This document shows positions 2,298 to 35,282 of a DNA stretch of 42,133 nucleotides, one piece after another. Below the pieces are notes generated by a model. It was given only the letters and a program-made list of their open reading frames with translations. It made no database searches and was not told the origin of the DNA. Both the position numbers and the translations under genes were made by a program. Position 1 is the first letter of the stretch. Every line of letters begins with the position of its first letter. Source of the stretch: Bacteroidales bacterium (GTDB lineage: Bacteria; Bacteroidota; Bacteroidia; Bacteroidales; DTGW01); contig JAOAFU010000074.1 in assembly GCA_026416115.1 (NCBI GenBank), forward strand, positions 1-42,133, read 5' to 3'.

Positions 2298-3320
2298 CTA
2301 AATATCGATGATTTTAGTCCATCCAAAACGGTCGGGTATTTCACCAAATTGAATAGCGGTAAGCTGTTCGTAAAGACGGGTACATACAGGACCTGGTTTG
2401 TCGTCTTTACAATATACATATATTTTTTTTGTGTCGGGGTCGACTATCGATTTGATGGGCGAAATTACAGCAGCAGTTCCACATGCGCCTGTTTCTTCAA
2501 ATTCTTCCAGTTCTTCAAGTGGAACAGGTCGACGCTCAACCTTCATGCCAAGATCTTTAGCAAGTTCCATCAAACTTTTGTTGGTTATAGAAGGTAATAT
2601 CGATCGTGAAGCGGGAGTGATATAAGTGTTGTTTTTAATTCCAAAAAAATTGGCAGGTCCGCTTTCGTCGATATATTTTTTTTCTTTTGGGTCGAGATAA
2701 ATTGCTGCAGAAAATCCGGCTTCGTGAGCTTTTTCCATCGATAGAAGACTGGCTGCATAATTACCTCCAACTTTAACATGCCCTGTTCCCAGAGGAGCGG
2801 CGCGGTCGTACTCTCGGCAAATCATCATATTAACAGGACGAAATCCTTCTTTAAAATAGGCTCCTACCGGTGTTACAAACACCATAAAAAGGTATTCTTT
2901 GGAAGGACGAACACCAACCTCAGGACCAATTCCTATTAGCAAAGGTCTAATATAAAGAGTTGCTCCAGTACCATAAGGTGGAATATATTGTGCATTCAGT
3001 TTTACGGCTTTAACTACGGCTTCGATAAAAAGTTCTTCCGGAACTTCAGGCATTAATATATATCGGGCGGTATCTATCATCCGACGGGCATTCTCTTCAA
3101 TTCTAAATAGTCTTACTTTTCCGTCCTTGCCCGTATAAGCTTTCATCCCCTCAAACGCTTCTTGTCCGTAATGTAATGAGGTAGCTGCCATGTGCATGAT
3201 AATATATTCCGAACTGCTTACCTCCAGTTCTCCCCATTTACCATTACGCCAGTAACAACGAACATTATAATCTGTCTTAAAATAGTTAAAAGGTAAATTT
3301 TTCCAATCAATGGTGCTCAT
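2298..3320 (-). CDS. ilvE: branched-chain amino acid aminotransferase
   Basis: PLP-dependent fold-type IV transaminase for the last step of Leu, Ile and Val synthesis and the first step of their breakdown (2-oxoglutarate/glutamate as partner). At 340 residues it is the longer, eukaryote-like class II BCAT. Visible motifs are the N-terminal YNVRCYWRNGKWGE, the substrate segment GQEAFEGMKAY, the catalytic-lysine segment HVKVGGNYAASL, YIDESGPANFFGI, and the late TGACGTAAVISP that contacts the cofactor phosphate. A TAnnTTTG match lies about 33 bp upstream of the start codon. It leads the leftward block with ftsX and DUF3098. A second fold-type IV aminotransferase lies at 18012. Confidence 0.95.
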   Translation of the reverse strand: MSTIDWKNLPFNYFKTDYNVRCYWRNGKWGELEVSSSEYIIMHMAATSLHYGQEAFEGMKAYTGKDGKVRLFRIEENARRMIDTARYILMPEVPEELFIEAVVKAVKLNAQYIPPYGTGATLYIRPLLIGIGPEVGVRPSKEYLFMVFVTPVGAYFKEGFRPVNMMICREYDRAAPLGTGHVKVGGNYAASLLSMEKAHEAGFSAAIYLDPKEKKYIDESGPANFFGIKNNTYITPASRSILPSITNKSLMELAKDLGMKVERRPVPLEELEEFEETGACGTAAVISPIKSIVDPDTKKIYVYCKDDKPGPVCTRLYEQLTAIQFGEIPDRFGWTKIIDI

Positions 3321-3391: not shown

Positions 3392-6300
3392 TTAGCTCGA
3401 GTTATGAATATTTCTTAATAATAGTTCAATTTGTTTCTCAGGACTTACGTCGCGAAGTACGTTTGCTACGTGGGTATAGTATCGATGGTTCGATAGGATG
3501 ACCATCTGCATTTTTGCCCATTCTTCCCAAGAATTTACCTTTTGGTGTTCGTACATCTCTCGGAAGTATAATTCATTTAGAGTTTCAAAATCGGCACGTC
3601 CAAGATAGCTCATTTCGGCATCGAGAAGAATTTCTTCCATTTTATTTATTGGCTTTCTCATGCCACGGGTAACATCTATCAGATTGACAATAGCTTCAAC
3701 CTGTGTTTCACTGTATCGATACTGTGGAAGTGTTTCTCTGGCATAACGTATGCTTTCGCTTTCATGTTCGTCGTACGACCAAATATAGCCTATATTCATC
3801 AAAAGAGCTGCAGTTCGAACAAGCAAAGTTTCTTCGATTGAGATTTGTTCTGCCCGACTATACAGCTCAACAAGATGGTAAGTTTCTTCTTGCCATTTGG
3901 TCGAATGGAAGTATATGTTTGGAGGTAGATTTTGATTTAGTAAATTAAAAACATTTTCTTCCAGGTCTTGCAAGCGGAGTAGTTGAAGCTTAAGGAAAAA
4001 TTTTTCGTTGGGTACATAGGGATTTTCGGCAGCCAAGTCGGGCTGGATCCCCTTAACAAAGTACATATCTATTTCTCCTTTGTATTTGACAGGCATTTTA
4101 CCTCGATATTCGCAGATAAAGAAATCTTTTACAAATTCGTAAGTTTGTCCCGATATGTTAATTTTACCAGGTTCGCCCGACGACTCCATACGGCTGGCGG
4201 TATTTACAGTGTCTCCCCAGATGTCGTACGATAGTTTTTTATGCCCAACAACTCCGGCAATTACTGAACCTGTATGTATCCCAATGCGTAGGTCCCAGAT
4301 GTTAGCATTGTTAGCTTTTAAGTTTTCCATGTAGTGTACCATTTCCAAAGCAGCTAATACAACTTCTACCGGATTCGTACTGTTTTTATTAGGAAGTCCT
4401 CCAGCACACATGTAGGCATCACCTATTGTTTTTATTTTCTCTATGTTGTATTTTTCAATAACGCTATCGAAATGGAAAAAGAATGAGTCTAACTGGTCTA
4501 TTAAAGCTTCGGGATTCATTTGTTCGGCAATTTTTGTAAATCCCTGTATGTCAGAGAATAGGACGGTTACCATCGAAAATTTCTGAGTCGAGGCCTTCCC
4601 GGTCTGCTTTAATTCGTCGGCAGTGGTTTTAGGTAAAAGATTAGCAATAAGCTGTTCGCTCTTTTCTTTTTCACGTAAAATTTCGGCAGTTCTTTTCTGG
4701 ACCAATTCATCGAGTTCTTCTTTCTTTTTAATAAATCGCCACGTTCGATATTTTAAAAGTACAAATATGGCAAGTAAAAAGAAAAGGAAATAAAGTATGT
4801 AGGCTGGTAGCGTGCGGTAAAATGGAGGTAAAATGTAGAAACTAAGTTCGGTAATATCGGAGATGGTACCATCGAGATCGAGCGCACGTACCTGAAATGA
4901 AAAATAACCAGGCGATAAATTATTAAAAGTAAAGGTGGTTTGCTGTGTCCAATCCGACCAGTCCTCGCTTTGCCCTATTAGTCGGTACTGGTATCGAACG
5001 AATGGCTGGGACTCGAAACGTGTCGAAGAAACTTCGAATTTAATGTTTCGGTAACGATAGTTAATTTCGGGATCGACAAGCTGAATGCGAAGTACTGAAT
5101 CTTTTCCAATAACAGCTCGTTTAATTATTGTAACAAAATTTCTTTTTGCTGTAAATTCGAAGGAGGCGTCGTAACAGTATAATTTATCTTTTCCACCAAT
5201 CCAAACATAGGGAGAATCGATCAGCATTGGACTAAAAATGGTTCCCGTTCTAAAGAAGTATGATCCTGTGTTAGAACCGATATTTTTATGAAGAACGAGT
5301 ATGCCTTTATGATCTTCAAATTTACTGGCTACGCGATACCATTTGTTCCGATTGTCCGAAAACAATTCAACTGCAAAGGGAATTTCTTCGAGAGTGACCG
5401 GTAGAGCCTTAGGTTGGAGTACAAGGGTGTTGTTTTTTTCTTCGTACTGAAATATTTGATATCCCATACATACTCGAATACCTCCAGTAGAAGAGAGTAA
5501 ATAGAGTGGTTTGCTTTCAATCTGACTTGTATTGGGATACAAAATCTTACAAGATATTTCAATTTTCCCAGCTTTAGCAATAATGCTTCCTACTTGCATG
5601 TTGTTTTGCACGAACCAAAGCTGATTGTCCTTCCATTCGAGCTGGTTAATAGCTGTACCATACAAAAGCGAATCTGTAAAGTTAATATTACCGGAAGGGG
5701 TGATTTGTCCGACGAAGATCCCATTCCGACTAGCAATGTAAAGCTGATTGTTAGCGTCATTTGTGGCTACATCACGTATTTCGGTCAATACAAAGTTTGT
5801 TATTTTACCTTCACTATTGAGCCGGAAAAAACCAGTTGGAGTAAATACAAGCAAAACCTTGTTTGCTACAATAAGTTTTATGCATTTATGGGTAATTTCG
5901 TTTACTTCTCTAAAAATTAGTTTTGAAATAGGGTTTGTTATATTTTGAGAAGGTTGTTGTTCGATAAAAAGACCGTCGGTTGTAGCAACCCATAGTTTAT
6001 GATTAAATTTAACCATATCGGTTACAGTGCCCCGTAAGCCGCTCTCTCTTCCTAGCATCGAGACATTGTATTGACTTTGGATACAGCTCAAACCTTGAGG
6101 GTGTAATGTCCAAAGGTTATTACCTTGGTCGAGATGCAGTTTAAGAACAGTGTTATCAAGTAAGCCTTCGGAAACACCAATTCTTCTGATATCGCCCGAA
6201 TTTGAATCGTATAAAAATACTCCCGAAGAGGCGCTAGCAATAGCAAAAGTGTTGTCGGGAAGAAGAATCAGATCGTTGATGATAGTTTTGTTAAGGATCG

Positions 6301-7036
6301 ATTCAAATCCCAGTTTAATTGCTTGGGCTTTTTCATCGTGTAAAAATATAAACTCTTTCGTTGCGCAAAATTTAATTAGCCAACCATTTTTATAAGGAAT
6401 TACAAATTGTATCTTAGAATGGGAAGGGATATTCTTTGTGTTGATGGGGGATGATTTTCCGTTAATAAGTTTATACAGACCTATTTCGGGTTTAAAGATT
6501 AGCAAAGTATCTCCAGTTCGAAAAATCTGAATAAAGTATTTACTACTATCGACGGTTTTAATAATATTTCCATCGGTTGTAGAAAAAAGCTTTCTAAAAT
6601 TATTAAAATACAGATTGTTGTTTTGCAGCAGGACATTAAATATCTGACCAAAATCTGTTGAACTATTATCCTTTACAATCAGGGGAATTAGTTGTGGCAA
6701 GCTGTTTTTGTAAAATTTAACAATTCCTATCTGATTATAACATGAGTAAAAGACCGAATGCTGGTTAGCATTCAGAAAAATTTGTCCCTTTAATGGTAAT
6801 CCAACAAATTCGTTTCCATAAAAAAGTATTAATTGTTCTTTTGCCCCTATAAGGAAATAACCCTGAGGATCTTCGAAAACGGAAATAGTGTCGGAAGCAG
6901 GAAAAGATTCTGGAAAAGGAAAGGTTTGGATAATAGGAGTTCCTGGCACATATCGAGCAAAAAGCTGTTGAGTTTGCAACAAGCTAAGGAATAAAAAAAT
7001 AGCTAATACATAGCGTTTTTTCGTTAAAAAATACAT
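3392..7036 (-). CDS. propeller-receptor adenylate cyclase with degenerate HD tail
   Basis: A 1,214-residue membrane receptor predicted to make cAMP. Order: signal peptide (about 1-27); periplasmic two-component-regulator propeller repeats (about 40-650, with WVATTDGLFI- and LYIASRNGIFVG-like blades); Y_Y_Y domain (about 680-725); one TM helix (about 748-768); a coiled coil; a class III cyclase (about 815-990); a C-terminal region of about 190 residues. The cyclase has both metal aspartates (FSDIQGFT, TIGDAYM), the lysine and aspartate that select adenine (KTIGDAYM, YDIWGDTVN), and the transition-state Asn/Arg (VNTASRM), so it looks active. The tail resembles HD phosphohydrolases (AALL..IGYI, HESES, LDAEMSYLGRADF) but the HD pair is replaced by MN. 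In Bacteroides hybrid regulators the same sensor drives a kinase; here the output is a cyclase. The ligand is unknown. Confidence 0.88.
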   Translation of the reverse strand: MYFLTKKRYVLAIFLFLSLLQTQQLFARYVPGTPIIQTFPFPESFPASDTISVFEDPQGYFLIGAKEQLILFYGNEFVGLPLKGQIFLNANQHSVFYSCYNQIGIVKFYKNSLPQLIPLIVKDNSSTDFGQIFNVLLQNNNLYFNNFRKLFSTTDGNIIKTVDSSKYFIQIFRTGDTLLIFKPEIGLYKLINGKSSPINTKNIPSHSKIQFVIPYKNGWLIKFCATKEFIFLHDEKAQAIKLGFESILNKTIINDLILLPDNTFAIASASSGVFLYDSNSGDIRRIGVSEGLLDNTVLKLHLDQGNNLWTLHPQGLSCIQSQYNVSMLGRESGLRGTVTDMVKFNHKLWVATTDGLFIEQQPSQNITNPISKLIFREVNEITHKCIKLIVANKVLLVFTPTGFFRLNSEGKITNFVLTEIRDVATNDANNQLYIASRNGIFVGQITPSGNINFTDSLLYGTAINQLEWKDNQLWFVQNNMQVGSIIAKAGKIEISCKILYPNTSQIESKPLYLLSSTGGIRVCMGYQIFQYEEKNNTLVLQPKALPVTLEEIPFAVELFSDNRNKWYRVASKFEDHKGILVLHKNIGSNTGSYFFRTGTIFSPMLIDSPYVWIGGKDKLYCYDASFEFTAKRNFVTIIKRAVIGKDSVLRIQLVDPEINYRYRNIKFEVSSTRFESQPFVRYQYRLIGQSEDWSDWTQQTTFTFNNLSPGYFSFQVRALDLDGTISDITELSFYILPPFYRTLPAYILYFLFFLLAIFVLLKYRTWRFIKKKEELDELVQKRTAEILREKEKSEQLIANLLPKTTADELKQTGKASTQKFSMVTVLFSDIQGFTKIAEQMNPEALIDQLDSFFFHFDSVIEKYNIEKIKTIGDAYMCAGGLPNKNSTNPVEVVLAALEMVHYMENLKANNANIWDLRIGIHTGSVIAGVVGHKKLSYDIWGDTVNTASRMESSGEPGKINISGQTYEFVKDFFICEYRGKMPVKYKGEIDMYFVKGIQPDLAAENPYVPNEKFFLKLQLLRLQDLEENVFNLLNQNLPPNIYFHSTKWQEETYHLVELYSRAEQISIEETLLVRTAALLMNIGYIWSYDEHESESIRYARETLPQYRYSETQVEAIVNLIDVTRGMRKPINKMEEILLDAEMSYLGRADFETLNELYFREMYEHQKVNSWEEWAKMQMVILSNHRYYTHVANVLRDVSPEKQIELLLRNIHNSS

Positions 7037-7070
7037 AACTTAGGCCAGTATTTACGGAATATTTTTTTAT

Positions 7071-7078
7071 CAAAAATA
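7071..7078 (-). promoter_or_regulatory. -7 promoter element for the cyclase gene
   Basis: On the minus strand this reads TATTTTTG, an exact TAnnTTTG match. It gives a leader of about 30 nt before the cyclase ATG at 7036. It lies in the 92-bp divergent gap shared with the stress-protein gene at 7129. Confidence 0.4.
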
Positions 7079-7128
7079 GGTAATTTTCTTTATCAGAGAG
7101 CATAAATTGCTAATTTATTCATAATTGT

Positions 7129-7959
7129 ATGGAAAATACCAATAAAACCATTTTAGTATTGTGGGACTTTAGTCCTAAAGCCGAGTGTGCTTTCGCCCAT
7201 GCTGTGAACTTTGCCGAGGCAACCAATGTCGATATCACACTTTTGCATGTGGTAAAGACTGATAAAGAAGTAAGTGCTGTAGAGCAAAAATTATCCGAAA
7301 TAGCACAACGTTTATCCCAACAGTCGAAGCTAACAGTTAATTTTCAGGTGATAAAAGGAACCATCTTCAAAAGTATCAGCAGCTATGCTTCTCATAGTCA
7401 TGTTGAGATGGTGGTAATGGCTACACATGGGATTAGAGGGTTGCAAAGAGTAACAGGCAGCTGGGCAATTAAAGTGATAAGAGGTAGCAAGGTTCCTTTT
7501 CTGGTAGTTCAAGATATGCCGCAAGAACGAAAATATGATTGTATTCTCTTCCCCATCGATTTTAAAAAAGAGAACATTGAAAAAATCAAATGGGCACATT
7601 TTCTATATAACTTATACAAAGGGAAGATTTATATTATTCATCCACGCGTTTCGGACCAAACGTTTAAAAAACGTATTTATTCTAACATGGTGTTTACTAA
7701 AAAGTATTTCGACAATACCGATATACCATATACAATAGATACGGTAGGAAAAGATTTAGCAAAAGAAACTATTGAATATGCGAAAAAGATTAATGCAAAT
7801 CTTATTCTCATCGCTCTTTCGAAAACACTTACATTTGCCGATTATCTAATGGGGCCAGCCGAACAAGATATTATTGCCAACGATGCCAAAATTCCGGTAA
7901 TGGTAATAAGCCCAAGGCCTAAGCAGGTTTCTGGAGGATTTAGTGCTACCGGCACATAA
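7129..7959 (+). CDS. tandem universal stress protein (UspA-like)
   Basis: Cytoplasmic protein of 276 residues with two Usp domains. The N-terminal domain (about 1-140) has the beta1 segment ILVLWDFSPKAE, then ITLLHVVK, and the nucleotide-loop region VVMATHGIRGLQRVTGS followed by VPFLVVQD. The second domain (about 145-270) keeps CILFPIDF and IPVMVISPRP but lacks a clear GxxGx9G[ST] ATP motif. Such tandem proteins are common in Bacteroidota, and their molecular role is generally undefined. The gene is divergent from the cyclase and 111 bp before the OPT transporter gene, which has its own promoter-like element. A second tandem Usp lies at 11835. Confidence 0.9.
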   Translation: MENTNKTILVLWDFSPKAECAFAHAVNFAEATNVDITLLHVVKTDKEVSAVEQKLSEIAQRLSQQSKLTVNFQVIKGTIFKSISSYASHSHVEMVVMATHGIRGLQRVTGSWAIKVIRGSKVPFLVVQDMPQERKYDCILFPIDFKKENIEKIKWAHFLYNLYKGKIYIIHPRVSDQTFKKRIYSNMVFTKKYFDNTDIPYTIDTVGKDLAKETIEYAKKINANLILIALSKTLTFADYLMGPAEQDIIANDAKIPVMVISPRPKQVSGGFSATGT

Positions 7960-11834: not shown

Positions 11835-12695
11835 TTATTTTGAGAAATTTTCGATTCGATACGACAGCATGGGTATCTTAAGAAAATGTGTAATTTTTTC
11901 TGTTTTTGACGCCTCAAATAAAGATTTAAAGAAGCCTTCGTGTTCTTTGAGCATTAGTAAAAGGTCGGCATTCGATGTCTGTTCTAATATTTTTTGAACT
12001 ACATTTTTATGATGGGTTAATGTGAAATCGAGCTTTGAATATTGAATTTTTTCAGCAACAAGCTGTCTCATGCCAGCCATTTTTAATTCTGTATTGAAGT
12101 CTATTGGCTTTGGAGACACATGAAGAATATTTAATTCGGGTACATATTTGCCAAAAATTTGCAAAAAACGATCGAGCATATCGAGCTCTTCTTTCTGAAA
12201 ATCTGTTGCAAACACTACCTTCTGAATAGGTTTGTATCCATAGGTCGAAGGTACCACCATTACCGGGCATTGGGCTTCGGATAATATGGCTGATAAGGTA
12301 TTATGGGTAAAACGAGTAATCAGGTCCTGACTACTTGAAACGGCCAATATTAAAAGATCGACATCGGGCATTGACGACTGGACAACCATTTCGTTCACTA
12401 AGTGACCTGTAACTACTTTAGTTTTAAAAGGCACTGACGAGGGCACCTGTTGCATGATAAGGGCCATAAAATTTTCGAACGACTTTTGAGCTGTCTCTTC
12501 CATCTCCGATATATTTTCGGCTGGTAAAATGGTTGAAATAAGTTCGGCCTCGGAAGTCCCAGCAGCAAACTTATATATTTCTAAAACATGGACTAAGTGT
12601 ATTTCAGCTTCAATTTTTTCTGCTAAATGAAAACCATATTTAACTGCATTTTTTGAAATTTCCGAGAAGTCTGTTGGAATCAATATCTTTTTCAT
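11835..12695 (-). CDS. universal stress protein, tandem domain
   Basis: Cytoplasmic tandem Usp protein. The first domain opens with MKKILIPTDFSEISKNAVKYG and has IHLVHVLE and LLILAVSSSQDLITRFTHNT ending in CPVMVVPS. The second domain (VVFATDFQKEELDMLDRFLQIF onward) is shorter, lacks a recognisable ATP loop, and ends in IPMLSYR. The ORF track begins at 12728; I prefer the ATG at 12695 because Usp proteins normally begin at this beta strand, though the ATG at 12713 is also possible. The gene abuts cls (0 bp) and is read leftward from the 12.7-13.1 kb intergenic region. Confidence 0.88.
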   Translation of the reverse strand: MKKILIPTDFSEISKNAVKYGFHLAEKIEAEIHLVHVLEIYKFAAGTSEAELISTILPAENISEMEETAQKSFENFMALIMQQVPSSVPFKTKVVTGHLVNEMVVQSSMPDVDLLILAVSSSQDLITRFTHNTLSAILSEAQCPVMVVPSTYGYKPIQKVVFATDFQKEELDMLDRFLQIFGKYVPELNILHVSPKPIDFNTELKMAGMRQLVAEKIQYSKLDFTLTHHKNVVQKILEQTSNADLLLMLKEHEGFFKSLFEASKTEKITHFLKIPMLSYRIENFSK

Positions 12696-13111
12696 AGGAC
12701 TATGGTTTTTCATTATGTTTAAAATCAAGCATTTAAGCCTGCTCGTATATTTAACTAATGCATCAGACTACCCTTTTTTGAAATGACCTAAAAAAATATT
12801 GAGTATACTTATGCAATATTAACCATTTTTTAAGGCAAATAGCAACTTTAAGCCGAAGTTAGACAATTTTTTCGAAATATAGGTGAAGTGAAATTTAAAT
12901 GTTTATTCCTAAGTATCTTATATTGTGTTTTAAATTCGACAATTGGATTGTTTTTAATCACAATACGTCCTACATTTGATATGTTTTATCTACTCGATTG
13001 TTATTTTTATTAAAATATGTATTGAATTTTATCAGGTTTTAGAATTTTCTGTAAAAAAGTATTAGGCAACGCAACTTTATGGTAAAATAATTATCTTAAA
13101 AATAAAAATCT
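12696..13111. other. divergent intergenic region before the sigma factor
   Basis: About 416 bp of AT-rich DNA between the leftward stress-protein gene and the rightward sigma-factor gene. I find no coding region or RNA gene. A promoter-like element for the sigma factor lies at 12948-12980, which would give a leader of about 125 nt. No TAnnTTTG match is seen for the leftward gene. Confidence 0.6.
12948..12980 (+). promoter_or_regulatory. promoter for the ECF sigma-factor operon
   Basis: TTG at 12948-12950, a 22-nt spacer, then TACATTTG at 12973-12980, an exact TAnnTTTG match. Transcription would begin near 12987, leaving a leader of about 125 nt before the TTG start. The leader is long for this window and could hold regulation, but no clear hairpin was recognised. 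Confidence 0.45.
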
Positions 13112-34040: not shown

Positions 34041-35282
34041 CTATTTTTGCAAGGAATTTATCATTACATAGCCAATTAGCCTTTCATACCTGGACGTTGA
34101 CGACTGGTAGTAAACGAAAGTATAATAATCATTTTCGGTTTCAAAATGAGAACCTTCTGTATACGAAAAATCTATTTGTCCTAATGAATTGCGATAGGCA
34201 ATGTAATAGTTGTAGTATCCTTGTTTTAGCAGGAGACTGAGTACATAGGCTTTCTTTTCAATATCGTAGCGCATTTGAGATTCTGAATTGCATTCCCAGT
34301 TGTTGAAGGCTCCTACAAGGTATAATTCTCCCTCCATCAAAGGTTCTTTTGTAGGCATTTGAAAATGAACCATTACATAATCAGCATCCCTGTCTTTATC
34401 TATGCCTTGCTGATTGGCAATAATATATCTTCCATTCATGTCCATCTCGCGCGAGTAACGACTGCGATGCCGCCATTCGTCGGGGGTAAGGAATATCTCG
34501 TAAAACTGATTAAGGTAGTTTACCGACTGTATTCGTGGGGTGAGAACTTTAAAGTTTTTGGTATCAAAATATCGGAACTCGTTTAATCCTTGAAATAGGT
34601 TAGAGTCGGGATCGTCGTATACCAATAGTCTATTGTTACGAAGTTCAGAAAGATAACATTTTTTTTGTGTATGAGGATTAAGGTTTTGAATGATAACGGT
34701 ATTAATCTCGTTTCGCAAATCGTATGCATCGGGACAATTAGGTAGTACTTTAATTTTATATTGCTGATATCGCTTCATGTAGCGGGGTATTTCGGGTTGT
34801 AACAATTGAATTTCGACACTGGCTAAGGGCTCAACTACATAAAAGCTCGCAGTAAAAAGTAACTTTTCGGGATTGTTCGCTTCAAATACCTTTATACGAT
34901 AGTTGCCCGAAGCTTTAAACTTACAATTCTCGTTTGGAAAGGTCAGCTCGTAATGAATATAATTAACTACGGTACGCGAAGAAAATGTATATTTGCTAAT
35001 GGGATTTGTTTCGTAACCTTCATAAAATTCTGTGTAGGGTAGTTCATCGGTTTGCCATTCGTGATTACAATGCTCGAAAGAGTACCATAAGTCTCTTACT
35101 TGATCTGAAAAATCGTCGAACTTTAAAACAAGCTTATCATTGGTTCCTAAAAATATAACAGGTGGTGAAGTTTCCCAACCTTGCTTAAAAATCTGAACGG
35201 TACGTATTTGCTTATCGAGCACTTGAGTTATTCCAGAACTCGATATAAGACAAACTATGAATAAGATATGATACCTGAACAT
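34041..35282 (-). CDS. DUF5103 / type IX secretion system plug-like protein
   Basis: A 413-residue exported protein (signal about 1-19, HILFIVCLISSSGITQ). The family pattern is clear: FEHCNHEWQTDELPYTEFYEGYETNPIS in pieces, then HYELTFPNENCKFKASGNYRIKVFE, FQGLNEFRYFDTKNF, EWRHRSRYSREMDMNGRY, and a C-terminal immunoglobulin-like part ending LLKQGYYNYYIAYRN. From established work, a Flavobacterium protein of this family plugs the SprA translocon of the T9SS on its periplasmic side. T9SS cargo genes in the same window (25587, 41920) are consistent. It overlaps the LapA-like gene upstream by one base (TAATG). No SprA or other T9SS core gene is visible here. Confidence 0.87.
   Translation of the reverse strand: MFRYHILFIVCLISSSGITQVLDKQIRTVQIFKQGWETSPPVIFLGTNDKLVLKFDDFSDQVRDLWYSFEHCNHEWQTDELPYTEFYEGYETNPISKYTFSSRTVVNYIHYELTFPNENCKFKASGNYRIKVFEANNPEKLLFTASFYVVEPLASVEIQLLQPEIPRYMKRYQQYKIKVLPNCPDAYDLRNEINTVIIQNLNPHTQKKCYLSELRNNRLLVYDDPDSNLFQGLNEFRYFDTKNFKVLTPRIQSVNYLNQFYEIFLTPDEWRHRSRYSREMDMNGRYIIANQQGIDKDRDADYVMVHFQMPTKEPLMEGELYLVGAFNNWECNSESQMRYDIEKKAYVLSLLLKQGYYNYYIAYRNSLGQIDFSYTEGSHFETENDYYTFVYYQSSTSRYERLIGYVMINSLQK

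Follow-up and report, generated by a model that had tools for sequence, protein, structure and literature searches.

A gene for a membrane-bound sensor cyclase and the gene for a soluble relative of its cytoplasmic half were found to have decayed reciprocally, and this reciprocal decay is the new element of the analysis. The membrane protein is read, with confidence a little above even, as a transmembrane adenylate cyclase working in a split cAMP circuit, in which the soluble paralogue would be a probable phosphodiesterase or a heterodimer partner.

All positions refer to the window, i.e., the whole stretch of 42,133 nucleotides that was analysed, and features are collected in Table 1. The plus strand over 3392–7036 contained many stop codons, and the real open reading frame lies on the minus strand. 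From its N-terminus, the protein consists of a signal-peptide-like segment, a propeller, a Y_Y_Y domain, one transmembrane helix, a coiled coil, a class III cyclase domain and a degenerate HD domain. The initial annotation had recognised this frame as a sensor joined to a cyclase through a single transmembrane helix and a coiled coil; both observations were confirmed, the cyclase and Y_Y_Y domains by Pfam and the linking segments by reading of the sequence, with the coiled coil conserved in orthologues.

Table 1. Coordinates of the cyclase gene, its domains and its immediate neighbours in the window.
Feature	Position	Strand	Basis and remarks
Whole cyclase gene	3392..7036	-	1214 aa; ORF and full-length orthologue from the same genus, 69% identical
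N-terminal signal peptide-like segment, residues ~1-27	6956..7036	-	Read from sequence: KKR, then hydrophobic stretch to LFA
Periplasmic beta-propeller region, residues ~29-665	5040..6950	-	Family profile vs 4a2l/3v9f/3ott, E 1e-48 to 3e-43; Reg_prop in 18/22 orthologues
Y_Y_Y domain, residues 680-736	4829..4999	-	Pfam E 5.6e-11
Transmembrane helix, residues ~740-765	4742..4819	-	Read from sequence TLPAYILYFLFFLLAIFVLLKY; between Y_Y_Y and coiled coil
Coiled coil and cyclase-transducer segment, residues ~766-816	4589..4741	-	Read from sequence KKKEELDELVQKRTAEILREKEKSEQLIANLLPKTTADELK; conserved in orthologues
Class III cyclase catalytic domain, residues 817-996	4049..4588	-	Pfam Guanylate_cyc E 1.3e-57; motif columns D829, K869, D873, D938, N945, R949
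Degenerate HD phosphohydrolase-like domain, residues ~1020-1206	3419..3979	-	Alignment to orthologues and paralogues matching Pfam HD
Universal stress protein, 276 aa, two Usp domains	7129..7959	+	Pfam Usp E 1.2e-25; divergent from cyclase
Intergenic region between cyclase and Usp, 92 bp	7037..7128	.	AT-rich; short patches aside, little conserved beyond the genus
Class IV aminotransferase (branched-chain aminotransferase-like), downstream	2298..3320	-	Pfam; conserved neighbourhood, recurs in 19 genomes

The propeller assignment was settled by a profile of orthologues, and not by the single sequence. The Pfam model Reg_prop was not significant in the gene's own product (E = 0.53), but was matched individually by 18 of 22 full-length orthologues, all 22 of which contained Y_Y_Y. 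The alignment of these 22 sequences, used as the family profile, matched the periplasmic domains of Bacteroides hybrid regulators (4a2l, 3v9f, 3ott and 3va6; E = 1e-48 to 3e-43), and the matches spanned the propeller upstream of Y_Y_Y (e.g., profile positions 52–333 and 291–636). The earlier view of the N-terminal half as a propeller of hybrid two-component type with Y_Y_Y was thereby upheld. AlphaFold models made from the single sequence were of low confidence, both for residues 25–745 (pLDDT 39) and for residues 451–1214 (pLDDT 38). Like the Bacteroides hybrid regulators (HTCS; 4a2l, 3v9f, 3ott), the protein has a periplasmic propeller and Y_Y_Y domain followed by one transmembrane helix; in contrast to them, its output consists of a class III cyclase and an HD domain, and no Pfam match to a histidine kinase, receiver or AraC domain was found in it. 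It shares with HTCS the sensor half, but not the output half.

Glycan sensing, as known from such regulators, found no support; the neighbours of the cyclase locus that were examined included no identified genes for glycan use, the conserved ones being housekeeping and secretion genes, and the idea was dropped. Pfam detected neither a propeller nor Y_Y_Y in the proteins of 491–689 aa encoded at six sensor-clade loci (L089, L095, L097, L098, L104 and L140), most of which still have the divergent Usp gene; repeated loss or replacement of the sensor part seems to have occurred in this clade.

The catalytic domain scored 194.8 bits against a Pfam cut-off of 21.9 for Guanylate_cyc. Alignment with orthologues and paralogues showed that it possesses each residue of a class III adenylate cyclase, namely the two metal aspartates (Asp829 and Asp873), the adenine-type Lys869/Asp938 purine pair and the Asn945/Arg949 transition-state pair. 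All six were intact in 36 of 37 sensors; at the adenine positions, compared across 38 sensors, Asp was present in every sequence and Lys in 37. The nearest solved structures by sequence are adenylate cyclases, and the residues point to cAMP, made from ATP, as the most likely product. Since every catalytic residue is found in one chain, a homodimer with two sites is to be expected. The full set of adenylate-type residues and the coiled-coil transducer before the domain are shared with class III transmembrane adenylate cyclases (mammalian AC5/8/9 and mycobacterial enzymes), from which this protein differs through its one transmembrane helix, periplasmic propeller, C-terminal HD domain and single-chain catalytic residues. 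Thus, the description of a complete class III cyclase given in the initial annotation held for the catalytic domain and its adenylate-type residues, but had overlooked both the C-terminal HD domain and a soluble cyclase-HD paralogue.

No match to Pfam HD above the cut-off was obtained for this protein. The conserved His, His and Asp of the metal site are replaced by W1048, M1080 and N1081, while H1044 and D1139 are kept, such that the H...HD...D series is broken here; it is complete in the paralogue on contig C189. Pfam HD was detected in 17 of 22 orthologues and the HD residues were intact in 27 of 37 sensors. Degeneration was also seen in a genome of the same genus (G003) and in one member of the family (G004), while another member (G001) has an intact domain. 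Where intact, the domain matches Pfam HD and has YHNxxHxxDV and HDxGH motifs, features in common with HD phosphohydrolases and class I cyclic-nucleotide phosphodiesterases (PDEase_I); this protein has lost the metal residues, and even intact members match PDEase_I weakly. With its metal site gone, the domain would have a structural role at most in this lineage.

In the genome, a single further gene for a class III cyclase was identified, on contig C189; searching the contigs with the single sensor protein produced one weak relative only. The C189 product is a soluble protein of 468 aa, comprising a coiled coil, a cyclase domain and an HD domain, and is 45% identical to sensor residues 764–1210. 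It has an intact HD domain (Pfam HD, E = 6.9e-8), but Asn in place of the first metal Asp of the cyclase domain. For the paralogue at locus L013, Pfam HD scored 33.2 bits against a cut-off of 22. The resemblance to phosphodiesterases was weak: PDEase_I was matched at E = 0.06 by the paralogue of this genome and at E = 8e-4 by a transmembrane-form relative, and PDE9A was hit at E = 0.7. No control genome gave a signal in the PDEase_I search of the genome. The soluble HD domain nevertheless displays a class I phosphodiesterase-like signature, and a cAMP phosphodiesterase is the most economical and most likely reading of the protein.

Across the soluble clade (n = 37), the first metal Asp was lost in 23 proteins and the second kept in 36, with Lys kept in 28, Asn in 35 and Arg in all 37. 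The retention of Arg and Asn despite loss of the first Asp means that this cyclase site still looks constrained; it may be a nucleotide-binding regulator, or an active site completed together with the sensor in the manner of C1 and C2. Four further loci (L100, L102, L105 and L141) form a third small clade of 579–631 aa proteins, in which the first cyclase Asp is changed to Asn, HD is intact and a Usp gene lies directly downstream.

The two clades were compared using a tree of 80 sequences and the residue states of 37–38 sensors and 37 soluble paralogues. Sensor and soluble proteins were separated in the tree (SH-aLRT 96), and over the 23 genomes having both, mean pairwise identity among sensors was 70% for the cyclase versus 42% for HD, while among soluble proteins it was 53% for the cyclase versus 68% for HD. 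The HD site was intact in 37 of 37 soluble proteins, just 7 of which had all six cyclase residues. The state of the cyclase metal site changed nine times within the soluble part of the tree and once within the sensor part. This double dissociation of erosion suggests that the sensor owes its retention to the cyclase domain and the soluble protein to HD.

The loss of HD from sensors was also associated with the presence of the soluble paralogue. All 10 tabulated genomes with an HD-broken sensor had a soluble paralogue with intact HD, and in the 13 genomes that had no soluble paralogue the sensor HD was intact (Fisher's exact test, p = 0.007). However, HD loss among sensors mapped to only two changes on the tree, and the association was not significant once descent was allowed for, a test on independent pairs having no power; compensation of sensor HD loss by the paralogue is therefore no more than plausible. 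One exception to the pairing was G002 (87% complete), where a soluble paralogue with a broken cyclase was present and no sensor was detected.

A Usp gene was adjacent to the cyclase in 30 of 38 sensor loci, divergently in 28, and was retained at 7 loci having none of the aminotransferase, Ham1 and PorZ genes. Such adjacency is not due to chance, because the genome has few Usp genes; yet the cyclase belongs to an older conserved block, including Usp, Ham1, PorZ, aminotransferase and FtsX genes, and so the linkage to Usp counts as suggestive only. In ~15–18 genomes (e.g., at loci L068, L071, L086 and L126), the porZ (type IX secretion) and Ham1 NTP pyrophosphatase genes are located upstream of the cyclase at a distance of a few genes. 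Elsewhere in the window, both on the minus strand, are a gene at 34041–35282 whose product matches the type IX secretion plug domain (T9SS_plug_1st, E = 5.9e-39) and one at 11835–12728 for a second Usp of 297 aa, which is ~20% identical to the Usp beside the cyclase. At four loci (L095, L098, L099 and L102), Usp genes occur on both flanks of the cyclase, the upstream one divergent and the downstream one co-directional, and the latter is more diverged (28–31% identity).

The mycobacterial Usp proteins Rv1636 and MSMEG_3811 bind cAMP, and a contact through Gly10 has been described for Rv1636 (PMC11107214). The likeness to these proteins lies in the position of a Usp gene beside this cyclase in most sensor loci; the neighbouring Usp differs in being a tandem protein, with Leu or Pro apparently occupying the position of Gly10, and its sequence gives no indication of cAMP binding. 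Nor did the CRP/FNR family, in which the initial annotation had proposed to look for cAMP-binding proteins, provide an obvious receptor, as four such proteins were found in the genome (92% complete) and none had the canonical GE...R(S/T)A cassette. A 407-aa protein at L169, in genome G100, has a canonical cAMP-type cassette (GEYSLIDSSVRSA); no other cNMP-binding protein inspected in eight related genomes had such a motif.

Placed together, these observations suggest a mechanism in which the propeller and Y_Y_Y domain would sense an outside cue or the state of the envelope, and the transmembrane helix and coiled coil would relay the signal to the class III cyclase, acting as a homodimer with both active sites complete; judging from its residues, this enzyme would convert ATP to cAMP. 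The missing HD activity would be supplied by the C189 paralogue, with its intact HD phosphohydrolase and eroded cyclase site; this protein is most likely a cAMP phosphodiesterase controlled by its own cyclase-like domain, possibly through direct dimerisation with the sensor. A more elaborate version, whereby an ancestral sensor-cyclase-HD protein was divided into a cAMP-making membrane sensor and a cAMP-destroying soluble pseudo-cyclase that act in complex, with the divergently encoded Usp as effector in place of CRP, is distinctly improbable.

A simpler account is rather unlikely, namely a self-sufficient sensor cyclase in which the propeller drives cAMP synthesis and neither the soluble paralogue nor the degenerate HD domain matters for control. 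Many propeller-Y_Y_Y-cyclase proteins in the phylum do stop after the cyclase, and HD is visibly decaying in this lineage, but the entire coiled coil-cyclase-HD unit is common to sensor and soluble proteins, where it is under opposite constraints, and most sensors (27 of 37) have kept HD intact. The erosion pattern might instead reflect a C1/C2-like heterodimer, as in mammalian cyclases, with one active site formed from the metal aspartates of the sensor and the Lys/Asp and Asn/Arg residues of the soluble protein. The soluble clade's loss of the first Asp, together with its retention of Arg, Asn and, in 28 of 37, Lys, would fit such a division; we consider it doubtful, since the sensor site is complete by itself and could work as a homodimer, while the soluble protein retains the second Asp, which is superfluous for a C2-like half, in 36 of 37 cases and has lost Lys in nine.

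That the cyclase domain is a receptor, or makes another nucleotide such as cGMP, is very unlikely. The Lys/Asp pair is not always predictive of specificity among bacterial class III cyclases, and the genome search turned up no CRP with the canonical cAMP-binding cassette; against this, the adenine positions are almost invariant among sensors and the closest solved relatives by sequence are adenylate cyclases. The split cAMP circuit remains the preferred reading.

The rarity implied for this fusion in the initial annotation proved wrong. Full-length orthologues occurred in many families of the order, and propeller-Y_Y_Y-cyclase fusions without HD were common elsewhere in the phylum, which makes the sensor-cyclase fusion a recurrent architecture. 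No published study of a propeller-cyclase fusion was found in the open-licence literature. The protein suggests that cAMP signalling exists in a bacterial group in which the best-known role of propeller sensors is to drive histidine kinases. With no recognisable cAMP-binding CRP, the conserved neighbouring Usp becomes a candidate receptor, and the reciprocal erosion provides a testable pair, in which one paralogue would make the messenger and the other remove it.
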